A stretch of DNA of 48,555 nt from Streptomyces lushanensis (GTDB lineage Bacteria; Actinomycetota; Actinomycetes; Streptomycetales; Streptomycetaceae), in NCBI RefSeq assembly GCF_001700515.1, contig NZ_MAUD01000013.1:1-48555 (forward strand). The letters run 5' to 3'. The translations under genes and the position numbers were made by a program. The notes beneath the pieces are model-generated. The model was given only the letters and a program-made list of their open reading frames with translations, had not been told where the DNA came from and did no database searches. Positions 31,600-46,234 of the stretch are shown here, piece after piece. Positions within the stretch are counted from its first letter, which is position 1. Each line of letters starts with the position of its first letter.

Positions 31600-34500
31600 C
31601 TAGGTCCGGTCCGGCAGCCATCCCACCTGCACCAGCGGCGCGCCGCGCTTGCGCGAGACGAACGTGCCGCGGCCCGCGGGCATGGGACGGGCCCTGACAT
31701 TGCCGAGGATGTCGCCCTCGCCCGGATCGCCGGAGAGGATCACGCCCTGGGCGCCCAGTTCCTTCATCCGCTGCATGAACGGCTCGTACATCGCGCGCGA
31801 GGCGCCCGCCGCACTGCGCGCGACGACGAAGCGGATACCGACGTCCCGGGCGAAGGGGAGATGTTCCACCAGGCCCGCCAGCGGATTGCCCGAGCCGGTC
31901 GCGACCAGCTCGTAGTCGTCGATCAGCACGAAGAGCTGCGGACCGTTCCACCAGCTCCGGTCGCGGAGCTGCTGCGGAGTGATGTCCGGCTTCGGTGCCC
32001 GCTTCTGCATCACCGTGCCGATGGCGTCCATGTGCATCTGCATGGCCGACGCCATCGGCGCGTACTCCAGCAGATGCGAGGACGGTACGGCCTCCAGCAT
32101 CGAACGGCGGTAGTCACCGACCACGATCCGCGCCTGCTCCGGTGTGTAGCGCTCGGAGATCTGCTTGGCGATCAGCCGCAGCAGCGCGGTCTTCCCGGAC
32201 TCGCTCTCCCCGAAGACCATGAAGAACGGGTCGGTCTCGAAGTCGACGAACACCGGCTCCAGACCGGTCTCGTCGATACCGATCGCGATGCCGTGCTGCG
32301 GGAACTCGAAGCCCTTGGGAAGCTGCTCGGCGGGCAGCTTGCGGGGGAGCAGCCGTACGGTCGGAGCCGCCGGTCCCGTCCAGCCCTCCCTGACCGCGCG
32401 GACGAACGCCGTCTGGCCGTCCGAGAGATCGGCGGCGCCGCTCACTCCGTCGATCCGCGGCAGCCCGCCCATGAAGTGCAGCTTCTCGGGCACCTGACCG
32501 CGGCCCGGCACTCCCGTCGGCACATTGGCCGCGACCTTGCGGTCGAACTCCGAGTCCATGACATCACCGAGCCGCAGCTCCAGCCGCCCCAGCATCTGGT
32601 CCTTCAGCGCCGCGCGCACCTCCATGTAACGGGCGGCGGTGACCACGACATGGACGCCGTAGCCCAGACCGCGCGCCGCCAGATCGGAGACGACCGGCTC
32701 CAGCAGGTCGTAGTCGTTCTTGAAGCCGCCCCAGCCGTCGATGACCAGGAAGACGTCTCCCCAGGGCTCACCGGGCAGTTCGCCCGCCGCGCGCCTGCGC
32801 CGGTAGGTCGCGATGGAGTCGATGCCGTTCGAACGGAAGAACTCCTCGCGCCGGTTGAGCACCCCCAGCACCTCCGCGACCGCGCGCCGGACCCGCTCCG
32901 GGTCGAGCCGGGACGCGACTCCGCCGACATGCGGCAGATCGGCGAGCGAGGCAAGCCCGCCACCGCCGAAGTCCAGTGCGTAGAACTGCACTTCGTGCGG
33001 GGTGTGGGTGAGGGCGAACGACGCGATCAGCGTTCGCATCAGCGTCGACTTGCCGGACTGCGGACCGCCCACCACGAGCATGTGGCCGGCCGCTCCGGAG
33101 AAGTCCCGGTAGAGGACCTCACGGCGCTGCTCGAAGGGCTTGTCGATCAGACCGAGCGGTACGGTCAGACCGCCGGGCCGGGTGTACTCGGTCGCGTTCA
33201 GCCCGCGCTCGGCGGTCACCGCGATCCCGGGCAGCAGCTGGTCGAGCGTCGGTGCCTCGTCCAGCGGCGGCAGCCACACCTGGTGCGCGGGCACCCCCTG
33301 CCCGTCCAGCCGGCGCACGATCACATCGAGGACGGTGTCCGCGAGCGCGTCGTCCTGCGGGGCCGAGGGCGTGGGCGCGGCGGCCGGATCCGGCGCCGCG
33401 TACACCACGGGCACCGGAGCGGCCGTGAAGAGCGCGGGCCGCCGCTCCACATGGAGCTGTCCCACCGGGAGATCGGGACCGCCGGTGCGGTACGTGCCGG
33501 AGACGTACGCCGCCTTGAACCGGGTCATCTCGTCCGTACCGAACTTGAGATAGCCGGAGCCGGGCACCGACGGCAGGTGGTACGCGTCGGGCACGCCCAG
33601 CGCCGTGCGCGACTCGGCCGCCGAGAACGTCCGCAGACCGATGCGGTACGACAGATACGTGTCGAGCCCGCGCAGCCTGCCCTCCTCCAGCCGCTGCGAG
33701 GCCAGCAGCAGATGCACCCCCAGGGACCGGCCGATCCGGCCGATCTGGATGAACATGTCGATGAAGTCGGGCTTGGCGGTGAGCAGTTCGGAGAACTCGT
33801 CGATCACCAGCACGAGCGAGGCCAGCGGCTCCAGCGCCGCGCCCGCCGCCCGCGCCTTCTCGTAGTCGTGGATGTTGGCGTAGTTGCCCGCCGAGCGCAG
33901 CAGCTCCTGACGGCGCTGGAGTTCACCGCGGATCGCGTCGCCCATCCGGTCGACCAGGGTCAGATCGTCCGACAGGTTGGTGATGACCGCCGCCACATGG
34001 GGCATCTGCGACATCCCGGCGAAGGTCGCGCCGCCCTTGAAGTCGGCGAGGACGAAGTTCAGCGTCTCCGAGGAATGGGTGACGGCGAGCCCCAGCACCA
34101 GCGTGCGCAGCAGCTCCGACTTGCCGGAACCGGTCGCGCCGACACAGAGCCCGTGCGGTCCCATCCCCTCCTGCGCGGCCTCCTTGAGGTCGAGCATCAC
34201 CGGCCGGCCGTCCTCGCCGACACCGATCGGCACGCGCAGCCGCTCGGCCGTCGACCGGGGCCGCCAGGTACGGGCCACGTCGACCGCCGCCGCGTCACCG
34301 AGATTGAGCAGATCCGTGAAGTCCAGGTTGGCGAGCAGCGGTTCGTCCTCGTCACCGCCGCCCGTACGCAGCGGGGCGAGCTGCCGCGCGAGCGCCTCGG
34401 CGGCGGGCAGCGAGATCCCGTCCGGCACGCCCTCGTACGCCAGACCCCCGCCGGACTCCAGCCGCAGCCGGCCCGGCCGCACCACCACGGACAGTCCGCC

Positions 34501-35556
34501 GCGCGGCTCGTCCAGCTCACCGGGGACGACCTCCACGACCGTCACGCCCTGAAGCCCCTCGGCCGCCGCGAACAGCGAGTCCGGCGGCACCGTCCCGCCG
34601 TCCAGCACCACCACCACATGCGGCTGGTCCAGCACCGGACGGCTGTCCCTGCTGAACCGGGGCCGCCCGTCCAGCCTGCCCCGCAGAAGCTGCTCCAGCT
34701 CACCGAGATCGTCGCCGAACAGCCGCTTCGTACCGGCGCCGTCGATCTGTCCCGGCACCTGCGTGTGCGGCAGCCACTTCGTCCAGTCCCAGCGCGCGAC
34801 CGCTCCCGGCGCCGCCACCACCGCGACCGTCACATCCTCGGGCGAGTGCAGCGTCACCAACTGGGCGATCAGCGCGCGGGCCGCCGAGTGCGCCGACTCC
34901 GGCTCGCCCGAGACCGTCACATGGTAGAAAGCGCGCATCGACACGGCCATCGGCAGCCCGTCCAGCGAGCCGTGCACCGCGAGGAACCGCTGCATCGCCC
35001 CGGCGCACAGCGGCTCCAGCTCGTCGACCGGAGCCGTGTCGGGCGCGACCAGCGCCGTGGCCAGCCGCTGAGCGCCGAGCCCGATCCTGAGCTGCCCGAA
35101 GTCCCCGTCGCCGACGCGCCGTTCCCACACTCGCGAGCCCTCGGCCACCACCGACCAGAGCTGCTCGGGCGAGGGATGCAGATAGAGCTGGGCGTCGCGC
35201 TGCGCCCGCGCCGTCCTGCGGACCGTACGCCGCGTCTGCGCGAGGTACTTGAGGTAGTCGCGCCGCACGTCGGCCATTTGCCCCTGCGTACCGCGACGGA
35301 ATCTGACGATCTGCGCGACGATCATCGCCACCGTCGAGAACAGCATCAGCACGCCCATGATCCGCATGAACGGAGGCGCCTGCGGCGAGAAGAAGAAGAC
35401 CACCGACGAGCCCATGCCGAGCACCGGCAGGACCTGCATCAGCATGCCCTCCTGCTGACCGCGCGGCAGTTCCGGCGGCGCCTCCAGGGCCAGGGCATCC
35501 GTGGGCACTTCCGGCGGAAGGGACCGTGGTGGGCGTTTGACGACGATCTGGCTCAC
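31600..35556 (-). CDS. eccC: Type VII secretion protein EccC (fused EccCa-EccCb)
   Basis: The motor ATPase of the ESX system. The 1318-residue product has two N-terminal membrane helices (about 37-85) and a DUF region. Three FtsK/SpoIIIE-type ATPase domains follow. Domain 1: Walker A GATGSGKSE near 473 and Walker B LVLVIDEFSELL near 585. Domain 2: GGPQSGKST near 830 with VFLVIDGWGGF near 935, where the catalytic Glu is replaced by Gly. Domain 3: GESESGKTA near 1115 with LFVLIDDYELV near 1210, where Asp takes the place of the catalytic Glu. Only domain 1 looks fully competent, as known for EccC, where domains 2-3 bind substrate signals. Single-chain form, not split as in ESX-1. Divergent from eccD. 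Confidence 0.95.
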   Translation of the reverse strand: MSQIVVKRPPRSLPPEVPTDALALEAPPELPRGQQEGMLMQVLPVLGMGSSVVFFFSPQAPPFMRIMGVLMLFSTVAMIVAQIVRFRRGTQGQMADVRRDYLKYLAQTRRTVRRTARAQRDAQLYLHPSPEQLWSVVAEGSRVWERRVGDGDFGQLRIGLGAQRLATALVAPDTAPVDELEPLCAGAMQRFLAVHGSLDGLPMAVSMRAFYHVTVSGEPESAHSAARALIAQLVTLHSPEDVTVAVVAAPGAVARWDWTKWLPHTQVPGQIDGAGTKRLFGDDLGELEQLLRGRLDGRPRFSRDSRPVLDQPHVVVVLDGGTVPPDSLFAAAEGLQGVTVVEVVPGELDEPRGGLSVVVRPGRLRLESGGGLAYEGVPDGISLPAAEALARQLAPLRTGGGDEDEPLLANLDFTDLLNLGDAAAVDVARTWRPRSTAERLRVPIGVGEDGRPVMLDLKEAAQEGMGPHGLCVGATGSGKSELLRTLVLGLAVTHSSETLNFVLADFKGGATFAGMSQMPHVAAVITNLSDDLTLVDRMGDAIRGELQRRQELLRSAGNYANIHDYEKARAAGAALEPLASLVLVIDEFSELLTAKPDFIDMFIQIGRIGRSLGVHLLLASQRLEEGRLRGLDTYLSYRIGLRTFSAAESRTALGVPDAYHLPSVPGSGYLKFGTDEMTRFKAAYVSGTYRTGGPDLPVGQLHVERRPALFTAAPVPVVYAAPDPAAAPTPSAPQDDALADTVLDVIVRRLDGQGVPAHQVWLPPLDEAPTLDQLLPGIAVTAERGLNATEYTRPGGLTVPLGLIDKPFEQRREVLYRDFSGAAGHMLVVGGPQSGKSTLMRTLIASFALTHTPHEVQFYALDFGGGGLASLADLPHVGGVASRLDPERVRRAVAEVLGVLNRREEFFRSNGIDSIATYRRRRAAGELPGEPWGDVFLVIDGWGGFKNDYDLLEPVVSDLAARGLGYGVHVVVTAARYMEVRAALKDQMLGRLELRLGDVMDSEFDRKVAANVPTGVPGRGQVPEKLHFMGGLPRIDGVSGAADLSDGQTAFVRAVREGWTGPAAPTVRLLPRKLPAEQLPKGFEFPQHGIAIGIDETGLEPVFVDFETDPFFMVFGESESGKTALLRLIAKQISERYTPEQARIVVGDYRRSMLEAVPSSHLLEYAPMASAMQMHMDAIGTVMQKRAPKPDITPQQLRDRSWWNGPQLFVLIDDYELVATGSGNPLAGLVEHLPFARDVGIRFVVARSAAGASRAMYEPFMQRMKELGAQGVILSGDPGEGDILGNVRARPMPAGRGTFVSRKRGAPLVQVGWLPDRT

Positions 35557-35718
35557 CGGAGCATCAATCCCTCAAGACGGACGGGCAGTTCCGTACCGGC
35601 GCCCCCGTGGCGACGGCCTCCCTCCGCGCGACGGAGATCCTACTTGCAGACCTCCGCGGGGCGCCCCGGTAGGGTGACGCGCGCACCGTGCGCAACCGCG
35701 AATCAGGGGGACAGACAC
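35557..35718. promoter_or_regulatory. Divergent eccC/eccD control region
   Basis: 162 bp between outward-read genes. A possible eccD promoter is TTGCAG (35644-35649) and TAGGGT (35670-35675), but the 20-base spacer is long. AGGGGG at 35705-35710 is the eccD ribosome-binding site. Nothing clear for eccC. Confidence 0.35.
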
Positions 35719-37200
35719 GTGACTACGACCGCAGCGACCGGCTTCTGCCGCGTCACTGTCGTGGCGCCGGACAGCAGGATCGATGTCGCGCTCCCGGAGG
35801 ACATCCCCGTCGCCGACATCCACCCGGAGATCCTGAGGCTGACCGGCCAGACCCAGAGGCCGGGCACTCCCACCGGATACCACCTGGTCCGGCGCGACGG
35901 CACCGTGCTCGACGGCGCCCGCACCCTCGTCGCCCAGCAGGTGCTCGACGGTGAGGTCCTCAGCCTGCGCCCCTTCGCCGAGTCCCTGCCGCCCGCGGTC
36001 TTCGACGACGTCTCGGACGCCGTCGCCTCCGCCGTCCGGCGCGACCGCCATCTCTGGAGCGACGGTCTGCTGCGCTCGGCCGGTCTGGTCGGCGGCGTCG
36101 TGCTGCTCGTCCTCATGGGCTTCGTCCTCTGGTTCGCCGATCCCGTCCGCCACGACATGCACGGCCTTCCCGGTGTGATCGCGGGCGCGGCCGGTGTGCT
36201 GCTGACCGCCTTCGCGGGCGTACGGGCCCGGGTCTACGCGGACCGCGCCTCGGCCGTCGCGCTCGGACTGGGCGCCCTGCCGCTGCTGCTGATCGCCGGT
36301 TCCGGGATCATCGGCCCCGACGCGGGACAGGGCCCCGGCCGGCTCCAGTTCCTGCTCGGCTGTGTCACCGTGCTCGTCGCCTCCGTCGTCCTCGTCGCGC
36401 TCACGCCGAGCGGCGACGCCCCCTTCGTCGCCGCGACCTTCCTGGCCACGGCCGGCACCCTCGCGACCTTCGTGATGATCCTGACCGAGGAGTCGGCCAC
36501 CGGTACCGCCGCTGTCTGCGCTCCGCTCGCCATCGGGATCGTCGCCTTCCTGCCCGGCCTCTCCGCCCGCTTCGCCCGGCTGCCCATCGGCTACGCGGCA
36601 CCTCGCGGCGCGGCGGGCACCGACCACGGCGACGACGCCTTCGCCGATCCGCACGCCGCGCCCGACAGCGAACCCGTCGACGGCGAGCGCATCGCCGCCC
36701 AGGCCCGCCGCGGCCACGAGATGCTGCTCGGTCTGGTCGGCGGCTGCGCGGCGGTCGTCGTCGGCGCCGCGGCGGTGCTCGGCTTCTCGGACACCGCCCG
36801 GGGCCAGTTCCTCGCCCTCGCCACCGGCCTCGCGATGCTGCTGCGCGCCCGGCTCTTCCGTTACACCTCGCAGGTCACCTGTGTGCTGGTCGCCGGTATC
36901 GCGGCCATCGCGCTGCTGGTCCTCGGTCTCTCCCTGAACCCGCCCGCCGACCTGGTCAGGGAACTCCTGACCTACGGCGACCGCGGCGCGCTCGACCTCC
37001 GTACGATCTGGCTCGCCGCGAGCGTGGCCGCGGGCGCCGCGCTGATCACCGCGATCGGTCTGATCGTCCCCCACAAGGGCCTCTCGCCCTTCTGGGGCCG
37101 GCTCCTCGATCTCGCCGAGGGCGCGGTACTGCTCTCGCTGGTCCCGCTCTGCCTCGCGGTCCTCGACGTCTTCACCGCGGCCCGCGCCCTCACCGGCTGA
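35719..37200 (+). CDS. eccD: Type VII secretion protein EccD
   Basis: EccD is the main membrane channel subunit of the ESX complex. The 493-residue product starts at GTG 35719. Residues 1-90 form the YukD/ubiquitin-like domain ([29 protein letters not shown]). From about 120 there are some eleven hydrophobic helices (for example [39 protein letters not shown] and [20 protein letters not shown]), interrupted by a hydrophilic loop around 300-335 ([20 protein letters not shown]). Length and topology match EccD. It closes the ESX locus; no EccA, EspG or PE/PPE genes follow. Confidence 0.94.
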
Positions 37201-43078: not shown

Positions 43079-43627
43079 TCAGGGACGGCGGTACTCGTCG
43101 CCCCAGGCCTCGACCGTGTCGGCCGCCCGGTCGAAGGCCTCCGGCCGCGCCAGGAAGTCCCCGTTGTGGTCGGTGAGCACCGGCAGCGCCTCACCCCTGC
43201 GGCGTACGACGACAAGCGCCTGGCCCTGGACCGTACGCGGCAGCCCGAGCCAGCGCACCGGCTGCTGGACCGTCCGTACGGCGGTGATCTGGTCCCACGC
43301 CACGGTCGAGGTCCGCAGCAGGGCGACCCGACGCACGCCGTGTCGGCTCACCCACGCGCCGACCCGCAGCAGCCGCAGCGCGACGGCGATCATCACCGCG
43401 GCGACCGTCAGACACACCACGGTGCCCGGCAGGGCACCGGCGAAGGCGATGATCATCGTCGCCAGCAGAACGAAGGAGGCGAGCAGCAGAAGCAGCGCCG
43501 CCGCCACCACCCGCCAGGGGCCGGGGCGGTACGGACGCCGCCAATGATCGTGATCGTCGAACGGCAGCGCGACATCCTCGGTGGTCGCGTCAAAAGCCCG
43601 GTCGGCCGTCAGGAAGGGCAGGGGCAC
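43079..43627 (-). CDS. PH domain-containing membrane protein
   Basis: A 182-residue protein read opposite to its neighbours. It has two central hydrophobic helices (WRVVAAALLLLLASFVLLATMI and GTVVCLTVAAVMIAVALRLL) followed by a bacterial PH-like region (VGAWVSRHGVRRVALLRTSTVAWDQITAV, then LVVVRRRGEALPVL). This helix-pair plus PH plan is common in actinobacterial hypothetical proteins. The GTG start has GAGG about 8 bases upstream. It is divergent from thyX across a 283-bp region. Function is unknown. Confidence 0.8.
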   Translation of the reverse strand: MPLPFLTADRAFDATTEDVALPFDDHDHWRRPYRPGPWRVVAAALLLLLASFVLLATMIIAFAGALPGTVVCLTVAAVMIAVALRLLRVGAWVSRHGVRRVALLRTSTVAWDQITAVRTVQQPVRWLGLPRTVQGQALVVVRRRGEALPVLTDHNGDFLARPEAFDRAADTVEAWGDEYRRP

Positions 43628-43910: not shown

Positions 43911-45107
43911 GTGAGCGACACCCCCGCCGACACCCCAGCGGAGACGAAGCCGAGTTTCCGCGGCGATGTCACCGTCGAGCTGCTGAAGCACTCCGCCAGC
44001 GACACCGACGTCCTGTGGGCCGCGCGCGTCTCCACGGCGGGAGAGCAGTCCCTGGAAGAGGTGTCGAAGGATCCCGAGCGCTCGAAGGGGCTCATCAACT
44101 TTCTGATGCGGGACCGCCACGGCAGCCCTTTCGAGCACAACTCGATGACCTTCTTCATCAGCGCCCCGATCTTCGTCTTCCGTGAGTTCATGCGTCACCG
44201 CGTGGGCTGGTGCCTCGCCGGCGAAACCGAGATCACCCTGGAGGGCGAATCGGGGACGCTCCGCCGCAGCACCATCGCGGATCTCCACCGGCTCCGGCGC
44301 CGAGACGCCGGAGCCGGTCTGCCGCAGGTCCGCTGCTACGACGAGGAGACCCTGACCGGGCGCCGGGCCCGGATCGTCGACGTCATCGAGTCGGGCGTGA
44401 AACCGCTGATCAGGATCACCACGGCCGCCGGGCGGGAGCTGCGCTCCACGGTGGACCACGCCGTGCTGACCCCGGACGGCTGGCGCAAAGCCGGTGAGCT
44501 CACCACGGATGACGCGGTACTGGCCGAAGCCACGGAGCGTGACACCGTGCCGGACGCGATCGTCTCGATCGCCGACGACGGCGAGGAGACGACGTACGAC
44601 CTGTCCGTCGAGGGCCCCTGGCACAACTTCCTCGCCAACGGCATCGTCGTGCACAACTCGTACAACGAGGAATCGGGCCGCTACCGCAACCTCCAGCCGG
44701 TCTTCTACGTCCCCGCAGAGGACCGCAAGCTGGTCCAGCGGGGCAGGCCCGGCAAGTACGAATTCGTGCCGGGCAGCGCCGCGCAGCAGGAGCTCACCGG
44801 GCGCGCGATGCGGGATTCCTACCTCCAGGCGTACGAGGCGTACCAGCGCATGCTGGCCGAGGGCGTGGCCCGCGAGGTGGCCCGCGCGGTCCTGCCGGTC
44901 GGCCTGTTCTCCTCGATGTACGCGACCTGCAACGCACGCTCGCTGATGCACTTCCTCGGCCTGCGCACCCAGCACGAACAGGCGAAGGTCCCGTCCTTCC
45001 CGCAGCGGGAGATCGAGATGGTCGGAGAGCGGATGGAGGAGCACTGGGCGAAGCTCATGCCCCTCACCCACGCGGCCTTCAACGCCAACGGCCGAATCGC
45101 ACCCTAG
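43911..45107 (+). CDS. thyX: FAD-dependent thymidylate synthase precursor containing a mini-intein
   Basis: ThyX methylates dUMP to dTMP using methylene-tetrahydrofolate and FAD/NADPH. The 398-residue precursor reads as ThyX 1-100, ending FREFMRHRVGW, then a 149-residue insert, then ThyX again from SYNEESGRYRNLQPVFYVP to the C-terminus. Removing residues 101-249 restores a continuous 249-residue ThyX with the flavin/dUMP signature RHRVGW-SYNEESGRY, the length expected for Streptomyces. The insert has intein motifs (separate entry). FAD would come from RibF. GTG 43911 has GGAAGGA 9 bases upstream. Two hairpins follow the gene. The frame is open throughout, so it is not a pseudogene. Confidence 0.95.
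   Translation: MSDTPADTPAETKPSFRGDVTVELLKHSASDTDVLWAARVSTAGEQSLEEVSKDPERSKGLINFLMRDRHGSPFEHNSMTFFISAPIFVFREFMRHRVGWCLAGETEITLEGESGTLRRSTIADLHRLRRRDAGAGLPQVRCYDEETLTGRRARIVDVIESGVKPLIRITTAAGRELRSTVDHAVLTPDGWRKAGELTTDDAVLAEATERDTVPDAIVSIADDGEETTYDLSVEGPWHNFLANGIVVHNSYNEESGRYRNLQPVFYVPAEDRKLVQRGRPGKYEFVPGSAAQQELTGRAMRDSYLQAYEAYQRMLAEGVAREVARAVLPVGLFSSMYATCNARSLMHFLGLRTQHEQAKVPSFPQREIEMVGERMEEHWAKLMPLTHAAFNANGRIAP
44211..44657 (+). other. Class 1 mini-intein inside ThyX
   Basis: The insert spans precursor residues C101-N249. Block A: C-L-A-G-E-T-E-I-T-L with the nucleophilic Cys1. Block B: GRELRSTVDHAVLTPDGW with the T-x-x-H pair (T180, H183). Block F: TTYDLSVEGPWHNFLANG. Block G: IVVHN, followed by Ser as the +1 extein residue. 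These are the residues needed for self-splicing. At 149 residues there is no room for a LAGLIDADG or HNH endonuclease domain, so it is a splicing-only mini-intein. Its GC content and codon use equal the host gene, which suggests long residence or a high-GC donor. Confidence 0.93.
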
Positions 45108-45321: not shown

Positions 45322-45334
45322 TAGCGTGTTACCC
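45322..45334 (+). promoter_or_regulatory. Candidate -10 box for a leaderless dapA transcript
   Basis: TAGCGT (45322-45327) is followed by exactly 7 bases and then the dapA ATG. This is the spacing at which transcription would begin on the A of ATG. No clear ribosome-binding site precedes the ATG, and GGGACA at 45297-45302 is a poor -35 with a 19-base spacer. Confidence 0.4.
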
Positions 45335-46234
45335 ATGGCTCCGATCTCCACTCCGCAGACCCCCTTCGGCCGGGTCCTCACCGCCATGATCACGCCCTTC
45401 ACGGCGGACGGCGCACTCGACCTCGACGGCGCCCAGCGGCTCGCCGTCCACCTCGTGGACGCGGGCAACGACGGCCTGGTCCTGAACGGCACCACCGGTG
45501 AGTCGCCGACCACCGGTGACGCGGAGAAAGACCAGCTCGTACGGGCCGTCCTGGAAGCGGTCGGAGACCGGGCCCATGTCGTCGCGGGCGTCGGAACCAA
45601 CGACACCCGCCACAGCCTGGAGCTCGCCAGGGCCGCCGAGCGCGCCGGCGCGCACGGCCTGCTCGCCGTGACGCCGTACTACAACAAGCCGCCGCAGGAA
45701 GGTCTCTTCCGGCACTTCACCGCGATCGCCGACGCCACGGACCTGCCGGTGATGCTCTACGACATCCCGGGCCGCAGCGGTGTCCCCATCGACAGCGAGA
45801 CGATCGTCCGTCTCGCCGAGCACCCGCGCATCGTCGCCAACAAGGACGCCAAGGGTGACCTCGGCCGTGCGAGCTGGGCCATCGCCCAGTCCGGTCTGGC
45901 CTGGTACTCGGGCGACGACATGCTCAATCTGCCGCTGCTCTCGGTCGGCGCGGTCGGCTTCGTCTCCGTGGTCGGCCATGTCGTCACCCCGGAGCTGCGC
46001 GAGCTGCTCGACGCCCACCTCACCGGCGATGTCCACAAGGCCACCGAGATCCACCAGAAGCTGCTCCCGGTCTTCATCGGCATGTTCAGGACACAGGGCG
46101 TCATCACCACCAAGGCCGCCCTCACGCTCCAGAAGCTGCCCGCGGGACCGCTCAGGCTTCCGCTCGTGGAGCTGTCACCCCAGGAAACCGCCCAGCTCAA
46201 GATCGATCTCGTGGCCGGCGGGGTACAGCTCTAA
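45335..46234 (+). CDS. dapA: 4-hydroxy-tetrahydrodipicolinate synthase
   Basis: DapA condenses pyruvate with aspartate semialdehyde, the first committed step to lysine and diaminopimelate. The 299-residue TIM-barrel protein has LNGTTGESPTT (substrate loop), TPYYNKPPQEGLFRHF with the catalytic Tyr, YDIPGRSG, and the Schiff-base Lys at K170 in VANKDAKGD. ATG 45335 gives the expected start (QTPFGRVLTAMITPF soon after). It may be transcribed without a leader (see the -10 entry). RNase J follows in the same direction after 189 bases. Confidence 0.97.
   Translation: MAPISTPQTPFGRVLTAMITPFTADGALDLDGAQRLAVHLVDAGNDGLVLNGTTGESPTTGDAEKDQLVRAVLEAVGDRAHVVAGVGTNDTRHSLELARAAERAGAHGLLAVTPYYNKPPQEGLFRHFTAIADATDLPVMLYDIPGRSGVPIDSETIVRLAEHPRIVANKDAKGDLGRASWAIAQSGLAWYSGDDMLNLPLLSVGAVGFVSVVGHVVTPELRELLDAHLTGDVHKATEIHQKLLPVFIGMFRTQGVITTKAALTLQKLPAGPLRLPLVELSPQETAQLKIDLVAGGVQL

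Follow-up and report, generated by a model that had tools for sequence, protein, structure and literature searches.

A predicted mini-intein in the ThyX of Streptomyces lushanensis and its nuclease-bearing relatives

INTRODUCTION

In the genome of Streptomyces lushanensis (assembly GCF_001700515.1), the thyX gene on contig NZ_MAUD01000013.1 is interrupted by an in-frame insert of 149 codons. Is this insert an intein that can still splice, and how does it relate to the longer ThyX inteins found at the same site? We addressed these questions in the stretch at positions 1-48,555 of the contig (48,555 nucleotides, here called the window) and in related sequences. We consider it very likely that the insert is a mini-intein that would excise itself from ThyX by class 1 splicing; it is likely a reduced form of a homing intein of about 303 residues from which both nuclease parts were lost.

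Kelley et al. (2016; PMC5050341) reported two groups of TdS-a inteins among Streptomyces and close relatives, of which group 2 is widespread in Streptomyces and group 1 lies nearer to the inteins of the mycobacteriophages Gizmo and ZygoTaiga. Because of that report, the site and the kind of intein count as already known. This answers a question left open in the original prediction of the mini-intein, namely whether an insertion at this point of ThyX had been described in Streptomyces.

RESULTS

Parts and predicted fold of the insert

The original prediction placed the insert after Trp100, with Cys1 as its first residue, T180 and H183 of the precursor (T80 and H83 of the intein) in block B, and a terminal IVVHN followed by Ser+1. 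Frame, coordinates and residues were all as claimed, and excision from the 398-residue precursor restores a ThyX of 249 residues. In profile searches the insert alone scored 56.5 bits against PF14890 (cut-off, 35.8), 36.1 bits against TIGR01445 (cut-off, 24.5) and 28.5 bits against TIGR01443 (cut-off, 15.6). Since these scores exceed the cut-offs, a chance resemblance to a mini-intein is not a good explanation. The class 1 residue set is complete, comprising C1, T80/H83, H148-N149 and S+1 (codon 44658-44660), and the predicted structure of the insert adopts a Hint fold. The closest solved relative by sequence was the NpuDnaB intein (4o1r; E = 2.1e-19). In structural alignments the window intein was 37% identical to NpuDnaB and 33% identical to the Ssp DnaB mini-intein (1mi8), both of which reside in another host protein. 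As also predicted, no endonuclease domain was detected: no nuclease family scored above its cut-off in the insert, and there is no room for one between blocks B and F. Sequence and model thus support the view of a canonical-looking class 1 mini-intein without nuclease, for which splicing is predicted.

The insert splits the conserved ThyX motif RHRVGW-SYNEESGRY, which we take to lie at the active site. Because of this split, ThyX that has not been spliced should be inactive. A comparison of relatives with and without the insert, as the original prediction had suggested, gave 17 intein-free ThyX loci (L014-L030) in which RHRVGW-SYNEESGRY is continuous, with no gap at the W/S junction; most inteins found at the same site are longer than that of the window. 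Class 1 splicing proceeds by an acyl shift, a transfer, an Asn cyclization and a second acyl shift. In ThyX, an N-S acyl shift would occur at Cys1, assisted by the T-x-x-H of block B, and the N-extein would be transferred to Ser+1. Asn149 would then cyclize with the aid of His148, and an O-N acyl shift would yield the 249-residue enzyme.

The window genome contains a single ThyX match. No ThyA was found in it (0 matches to PF00303 in a search that was positive in 9 of 14 control genomes), and a divergent ThyX of the type described below for S. humi gave no match. Since neither another ThyX nor a ThyA was found, selection for splicing likely keeps the element in place, and it should no longer home. 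No trans-acting copy of the lost nuclease was detected in the window genome at E values up to 1. A second intein was not found there above the PF14890 cut-off, the one weak match being at C533 (E = 0.015).

We then compared the window with its relative L002 by the Nei-Gojobori method. For the intein, nonsynonymous divergence (dN) was 0.068 and synonymous divergence (dS) 0.177, giving a ratio (omega) of 0.38 with a bootstrap 95% interval of 0.21 to 0.77 and a fraction of 0.005 at or above 1. For the extein, dN was 0.002, dS 0.125 and omega 0.015. The similar dS values fit an intein and an extein that have been inherited together since the two species separated, and an intein omega below 1 fits continued splicing under a looser constraint than that on the enzyme. 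Moreover, the catalytic residues C1, H83, H138, N139, H148 and N149 were invariant in 150 of 150 group 2 rows, including L089, which has its intein at another site. Together these sequence data indicate that the window element is real and very probably a splicing-competent mini-intein, at a known site.

Relatives at the same site

Searching protein sequences with the intein region as query returned 224 proteins, 120 of them listed; the tally comprised 116 after removal of P0002 and P0003 and of P0049, P0052, P0103 and P0112, the last four having no readable N-junction. A scan of named genomes gave 50 loci, 45 of which yielded a row (L088 and L090-L093 were left out). Among viral loci, L041-L043 gave no row, and L039 and L094 had no N-junction by the pattern used. 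Removal of duplicates reduced 175 rows to 154, and P0055 and L087 were assigned manually to the full-length class; extein trees exclude phage and off-site rows. P0107, with an apparent frameshift in its C-extein, forms a very long branch.

Most same-site relatives found carry a two-piece insert, AP2-like and HNH, that is missing in the window and had escaped the original prediction. Judged by length, both pieces were present in 121 of the 154 rows and neither in 24, the other 9 being intermediate or Gizmo-like; because the query was a mini-intein, these proportions do not represent a prevalence. In a Streptomyces sample, 22 of 392 genomes had a match, a lower bound with five candidates scored per genome. 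A ThyX intein occupies the window site in at least 17 of these 392 genomes. Fourteen belong to the same group as the window (12 with 303 or 307 residues and two minis, the window and G028), and three are Gizmo-like (G032 and G316 with HNH, G193 a mini). The remaining five matching genomes comprised one with a free-standing relative (G084) and four with weak matches in frames of 1004 to 1384 residues. The G028 and window inserts are both 149 residues long, share the insertion point and are 85% identical. The 398-residue precursor of G028 belongs to P0004, a protein cluster of eight sequences labelled Streptomyces sp. SID4917.

The Gizmo type shares the insertion point, reading RHRSGF-intein-SYNEESGRY (L031, L032) versus RHRVGW-intein-SYNEESGRY. 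In the tree, L003, L013, L031 and L032 split from the rest with a support of 100, at a place where the program warns of long branches meeting. We infer from these sequences that the window intein would belong to TdS-a group 2, the clade opposite the Gizmo-like one. It has the same host protein as the Streptomyces TdS-a inteins of PMC5050341 and shares its insertion point with the Gizmo and Cane17 inteins. The part of that paper drawn on here does not deal with whether TdS inteins contain a nuclease or have been reduced; the window member lacks both nuclease parts.

Phages and plasmids were considered as carriers and rejected. The L004 intein matched 58 phage records (E limit, 1e-5), 15 of them Mycobacterium phages and none filed under Streptomyces, and a search for plasmid carriage gave no match. 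Several viral and off-site ThyX genes were noted in passing. A related intein of about 306 residues lies some two residues downstream, as KHRIGVSL-intein-SEESGRY, in a different ThyX of Nocardia jiangxiensis (L089) and of a viral contig (L040). The ThyX of Mycobacterium phage StAugustine (L094, 1252-2721; a 101-kb record not filed under Bixzunavirus) shows 41% identity to the L004 intein over part of its length. In a metagenomic viral contig (L039, 1927-3288), ThyX contains a short intein-like insert whose last residues, VVHN, precede SYNEMSGRY. The ThyX of Streptomyces phage Zuko (L033, 1471-2268) has an empty site, RHRVGW-SYNEESGRY, and is a possible homing target.

Likely reduction from a two-piece form

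In the 303-residue form, an HNH domain follows block B and precedes block F (L004, 33.5 bits; cut-off, 21.4). Its C, C, DH, N, C and C columns do not vary across 25 aligned full-length relatives. In a model of P0005, the AP2-like segment consists of three strands and a helix, with a predicted local distance difference test (pLDDT) score of 78 to 84 over residues 141-180. The window aligns only to residues 1-38, 101-171 and 268-303 of L004. Compared with L004, 62 residues (39-100) are missing and four residues replace 96 (172-267), which leaves 149.

The nearest full-length relative is P0005 (Streptomyces sp. NPDC056672), with exteins identical to those of the window at 84 of 85 and 148 of 149 positions. 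Identity in the splicing core is 118/135 between window and P0005, 119/135 between window and L002, and 121/136 between P0005 and L002. The extein protein tree joins P0005, the window and L002 in one clade (Shimodaira-Hasegawa-like approximate likelihood ratio test, 99), and the intein-core tree places P0005 next to the window and L002 with a support of 91. The simplest reading of these sequences would be that both nuclease pieces were lost after the split from P0005.

Reduction probably did not happen only once in the family. A single origin of all 23 group 2 minis was rejected, since placing them in one clade gave a p value of 0.011 in an approximately unbiased (AU) test. The test used a quick tree of 71 of the 149 group 2 rows at the site, a subsample with every mini and fewer of the full-length rows. 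When the four Gizmo-like rows are set aside, the intein-core tree requires 13 changes between full and reduced forms, of which well-supported branches force only a few. The remnants in minis vary, with 37 to 65 residues before the VRCYD block and 28 to 59 between KAGEL and TYDL. Half-reduced forms also occur: P0037 and L048 retain HNH only, P0104 the AP2-like piece only, and P0024, P0063 and P0111 are partial.

A free-standing relative in S. humi

In S. humi (G084), the thyX slot is filled differently. This slot, bounded by dapA and a small conserved ORF (open reading frame; window 43079-43627), contains a free-standing intein-family ORF of 346 codons that runs in the direction of thyX, and a divergent ThyX that runs the other way. 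A search of this stretch detected neither native ThyX extein at E = 1e-4, and the best match of the genome to the window ThyX reached only E = 1e-10. The free-standing ORF has lost Cys1, the T and H of block B, the His of block F and the terminal His-Asn, but its HNH motif is retained (32.9 bits). Where the ORF truly begins is uncertain, because the NCBI model (P0123, 275 residues) opens later, at the AP2-like part. The same kind of protein occurs in two more strains (P0124 and P0125, 74 and 71% identical to that of S. humi).

Among these three proteins, the nuclease parts are 84 to 88% identical and the splicing parts 64 to 73%. The difference between the two is +11 to +22 points, compared with an average of -7 and a maximum of +9.5 in 7140 full-length pairs. 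Because of this difference, selection seems to maintain the nuclease rather than splicing. The divergent ThyX was found in 7 of 392 Streptomyces (G084, G356, G386 and four more); those four, G031, G112, G154 and G316, were checked and hold a native-type ThyX besides it. When 150 relatives of G084 were searched for the free-standing nuclease, the only matches were in G084 and, as a group 1 intein, in G032.

Features and neighboring genes

Feature coordinates are collected in Table 1. The start of the thyX precursor was chosen by homology to P0004, and the open frame continues further upstream. The order dapB-ORF-ORF-thyX-dapA-RNase J (both ORFs small) is kept in the six relatives compared, with the G084 thyX slot filled as described. 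Elsewhere in the window, a frame of 1779 codons (31861-37200) has YukD and EccD domains of type VII secretion at its end; its approximately 1290 upstream residues have no Pfam match at 1e-5, and its start position is uncertain.

Table 1. Positions of the thyX features in the window and of the S. humi genes
Feature	Position	Strand	Remarks
thyX precursor ORF	43911..45107	+	398 residues, GTG start; TIGR02170, 182.3 bits
ThyX N-extein	43911..44210	+	100 residues, C-terminal end RHRVGW; PF02511
Mini-intein (predicted)	44211..44657	+	149 residues; PF14890, TIGR01445, TIGR01443 above cut-off; Hint-fold model
Splicing block A with predicted nucleophile Cys1, CLAGETEITLEGE	44211..44249	+	
AP2-like insertion point, between residues 38 and 39	44324..44325	+	62-residue segment absent in window
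Cys42, noncatalytic	44334..44336	+	Conserved in 150/150 group 2 rows
Block B T80-V-D-H83	44448..44459	+	Precursor T180 and H183
4-residue linker	44538..44549	+	Full-length relatives: 96-residue HNH-bearing stretch (L004 172-267)
Block F TYDLSVEGPWHNFLANG	44592..44642	+	
Block G GIVVHN	44640..44657	+	His148 and predicted cyclizing Asn149
ThyX C-extein	44658..45104	+	149 residues, opens with Ser+1 (SYNEESGRY)
dapA	45326..46234	+	PF00701; synteny
Free-standing AP2-like/HNH intein relative	L107 1462-2502; L122 4311-5351	-	G084 (S. humi), native thyX locus
Divergent ThyX, RHRAGVAVSQESLRF	L107 580-1374	+	264 residues; beside nuclease, in native thyX place

DISCUSSION

Several observations weigh against a splicing mini-intein reduced from a two-piece ancestor. 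The AP2 matches, between blocks A and B, remain below threshold (L004, 14.3 bits; P0060, 25.7 bits; Pfam cut-off, 33.3), and L008, a full-length relative outside the 25-row alignment, has NH for DH in its HNH motif. The models are poor for P0005 overall (49.8) and for the precursor outside the intein (mean pLDDT, 58). The intein omega is far above that of the extein, so that constraint is moderate only. The window has substitutions at well-conserved positions: Glu at residue 5 of block A (D5E; Asp in 145/150 group 2 rows, Glu in 1/150) and M127T (Thr in 2/150). Finally, in an intein tree built from a subsample, the window, L002 and the mini of S. odonnellii form one clade that leaves out P0005 (support, 97). 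Because this conflicts with the extein tree, one or two reductions may have occurred in this small clade; the window and L002 may share theirs with S. odonnellii, a point on which the poorly resolved intein and extein trees disagree.

The same subsampled tree, together with an extein tree that places the minis of S. odonnellii, L002 and the window around full-length P0005, would fit a lineage that was always nuclease-free, with relatives like P0005 having gained the AP2-like and HNH pieces. We find this quite improbable, since full-length forms far outnumber minis among the rows and carry the pieces at the same positions, the P0005 core is about as close to L002 and to the window as these are to each other, and the variable remnants and half-reduced forms (P0024, P0037, P0104, P0111) fit loss. 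An insert dead for splicing, in a ThyX that tolerates it or is itself dead, would accommodate D5E, M127T and the weaker constraint than on the extein. However, the catalytic residues are all intact, omega stays below 1 in nearly all bootstrap replicates, and the exteins are very strongly constrained in a genome with no other thymidylate synthase found, which makes such a state very improbable. As for an assembly or sequencing artefact, which the original prediction had named as a way to be wrong, the genome does lie in 732 contigs; because the same 149-residue insert stands at the same point in another species (G028), with the frame intact and synteny normal, we regard this as hardly credible.

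The mini-intein might instead act as a conditional switch, with ThyX splicing responding to a signal (e.g., redox at Cys1/Cys42) and gating synthesis of thymidylate (dTMP). Cys42 is not part of the known splicing mechanism. It is present in all group 2 rows including minis and replaced by Ala or Ser in three splicing-dead relatives, so that it tracks splicing, and the insertion lies within a conserved motif of the enzyme. In contrast, position 42 is Thr in the group 1 inteins of this site (4/4), and the low count of sampled Streptomyces seen to carry a ThyX intein (at least 17 of 392) does not suggest a generally useful switch. We thus consider a switch unlikely; Cys42 is possibly a redox or structural residue. 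A splicing mini-intein that lost both nuclease parts remains the reading we prefer. For comparison, another ThyX mini-intein is that of Ter, presumably the genus Trichodesmium. The Ter mini-intein, likewise in a ThyX, is a constructed one and splices to approximately 100% in E. coli (PMC3620165).

In yeast, WHO elements carry FBA1 along (eLife 58403; eLife 55336). The S. humi relative resembles HO/WHO, as described in these sources, in being a free-standing, intein-related endonuclease gene that has lost the splicing residues, keeps a nuclease motif and stands beside an altered presumed target gene. It is unlike HO/WHO in being bacterial, HNH/AP2-like and a candidate homing nuclease, and it is distinct from the window element. 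By analogy, we hypothesize that the S. humi nuclease may cut native thyX and carry the foreign thyX along in a WHO-like manner. More broadly, and tentatively, the Streptomyces ThyX intein could be a modular two-piece homing element, with an AP2-like part for DNA reading and an HNH part for cutting set into a single splicing domain. Each half could persist without the other, the splicing half as an immobile, essential mini-intein like that of the window, and the nuclease half as the free-standing, splicing-dead S. humi nuclease that occupies the thyX locus with an uncuttable foreign ThyX, a bacterial counterpart of WHO; we consider this possible rather than probable. In open-licence PubMed Central, no paper was found that describes the combination of AP2-like and HNH pieces, the recurrent loss of these pieces or a free-standing relative.

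The mini-intein is ordinary as such and informative as the splice-only end of a decay series. At one site in one actinobacterial group there are empty genes, two-piece homing inteins, half-reduced forms, minis and free-standing nuclease descendants (three strains). This graded series makes testable the order of homing-element decay, the selection acting on it and its dependence on the host gene, and also whether the nuclease of an intein can become independent and take the place of its host gene. The mini-intein itself may serve as a compact protein-ligation tool in actinobacteria.
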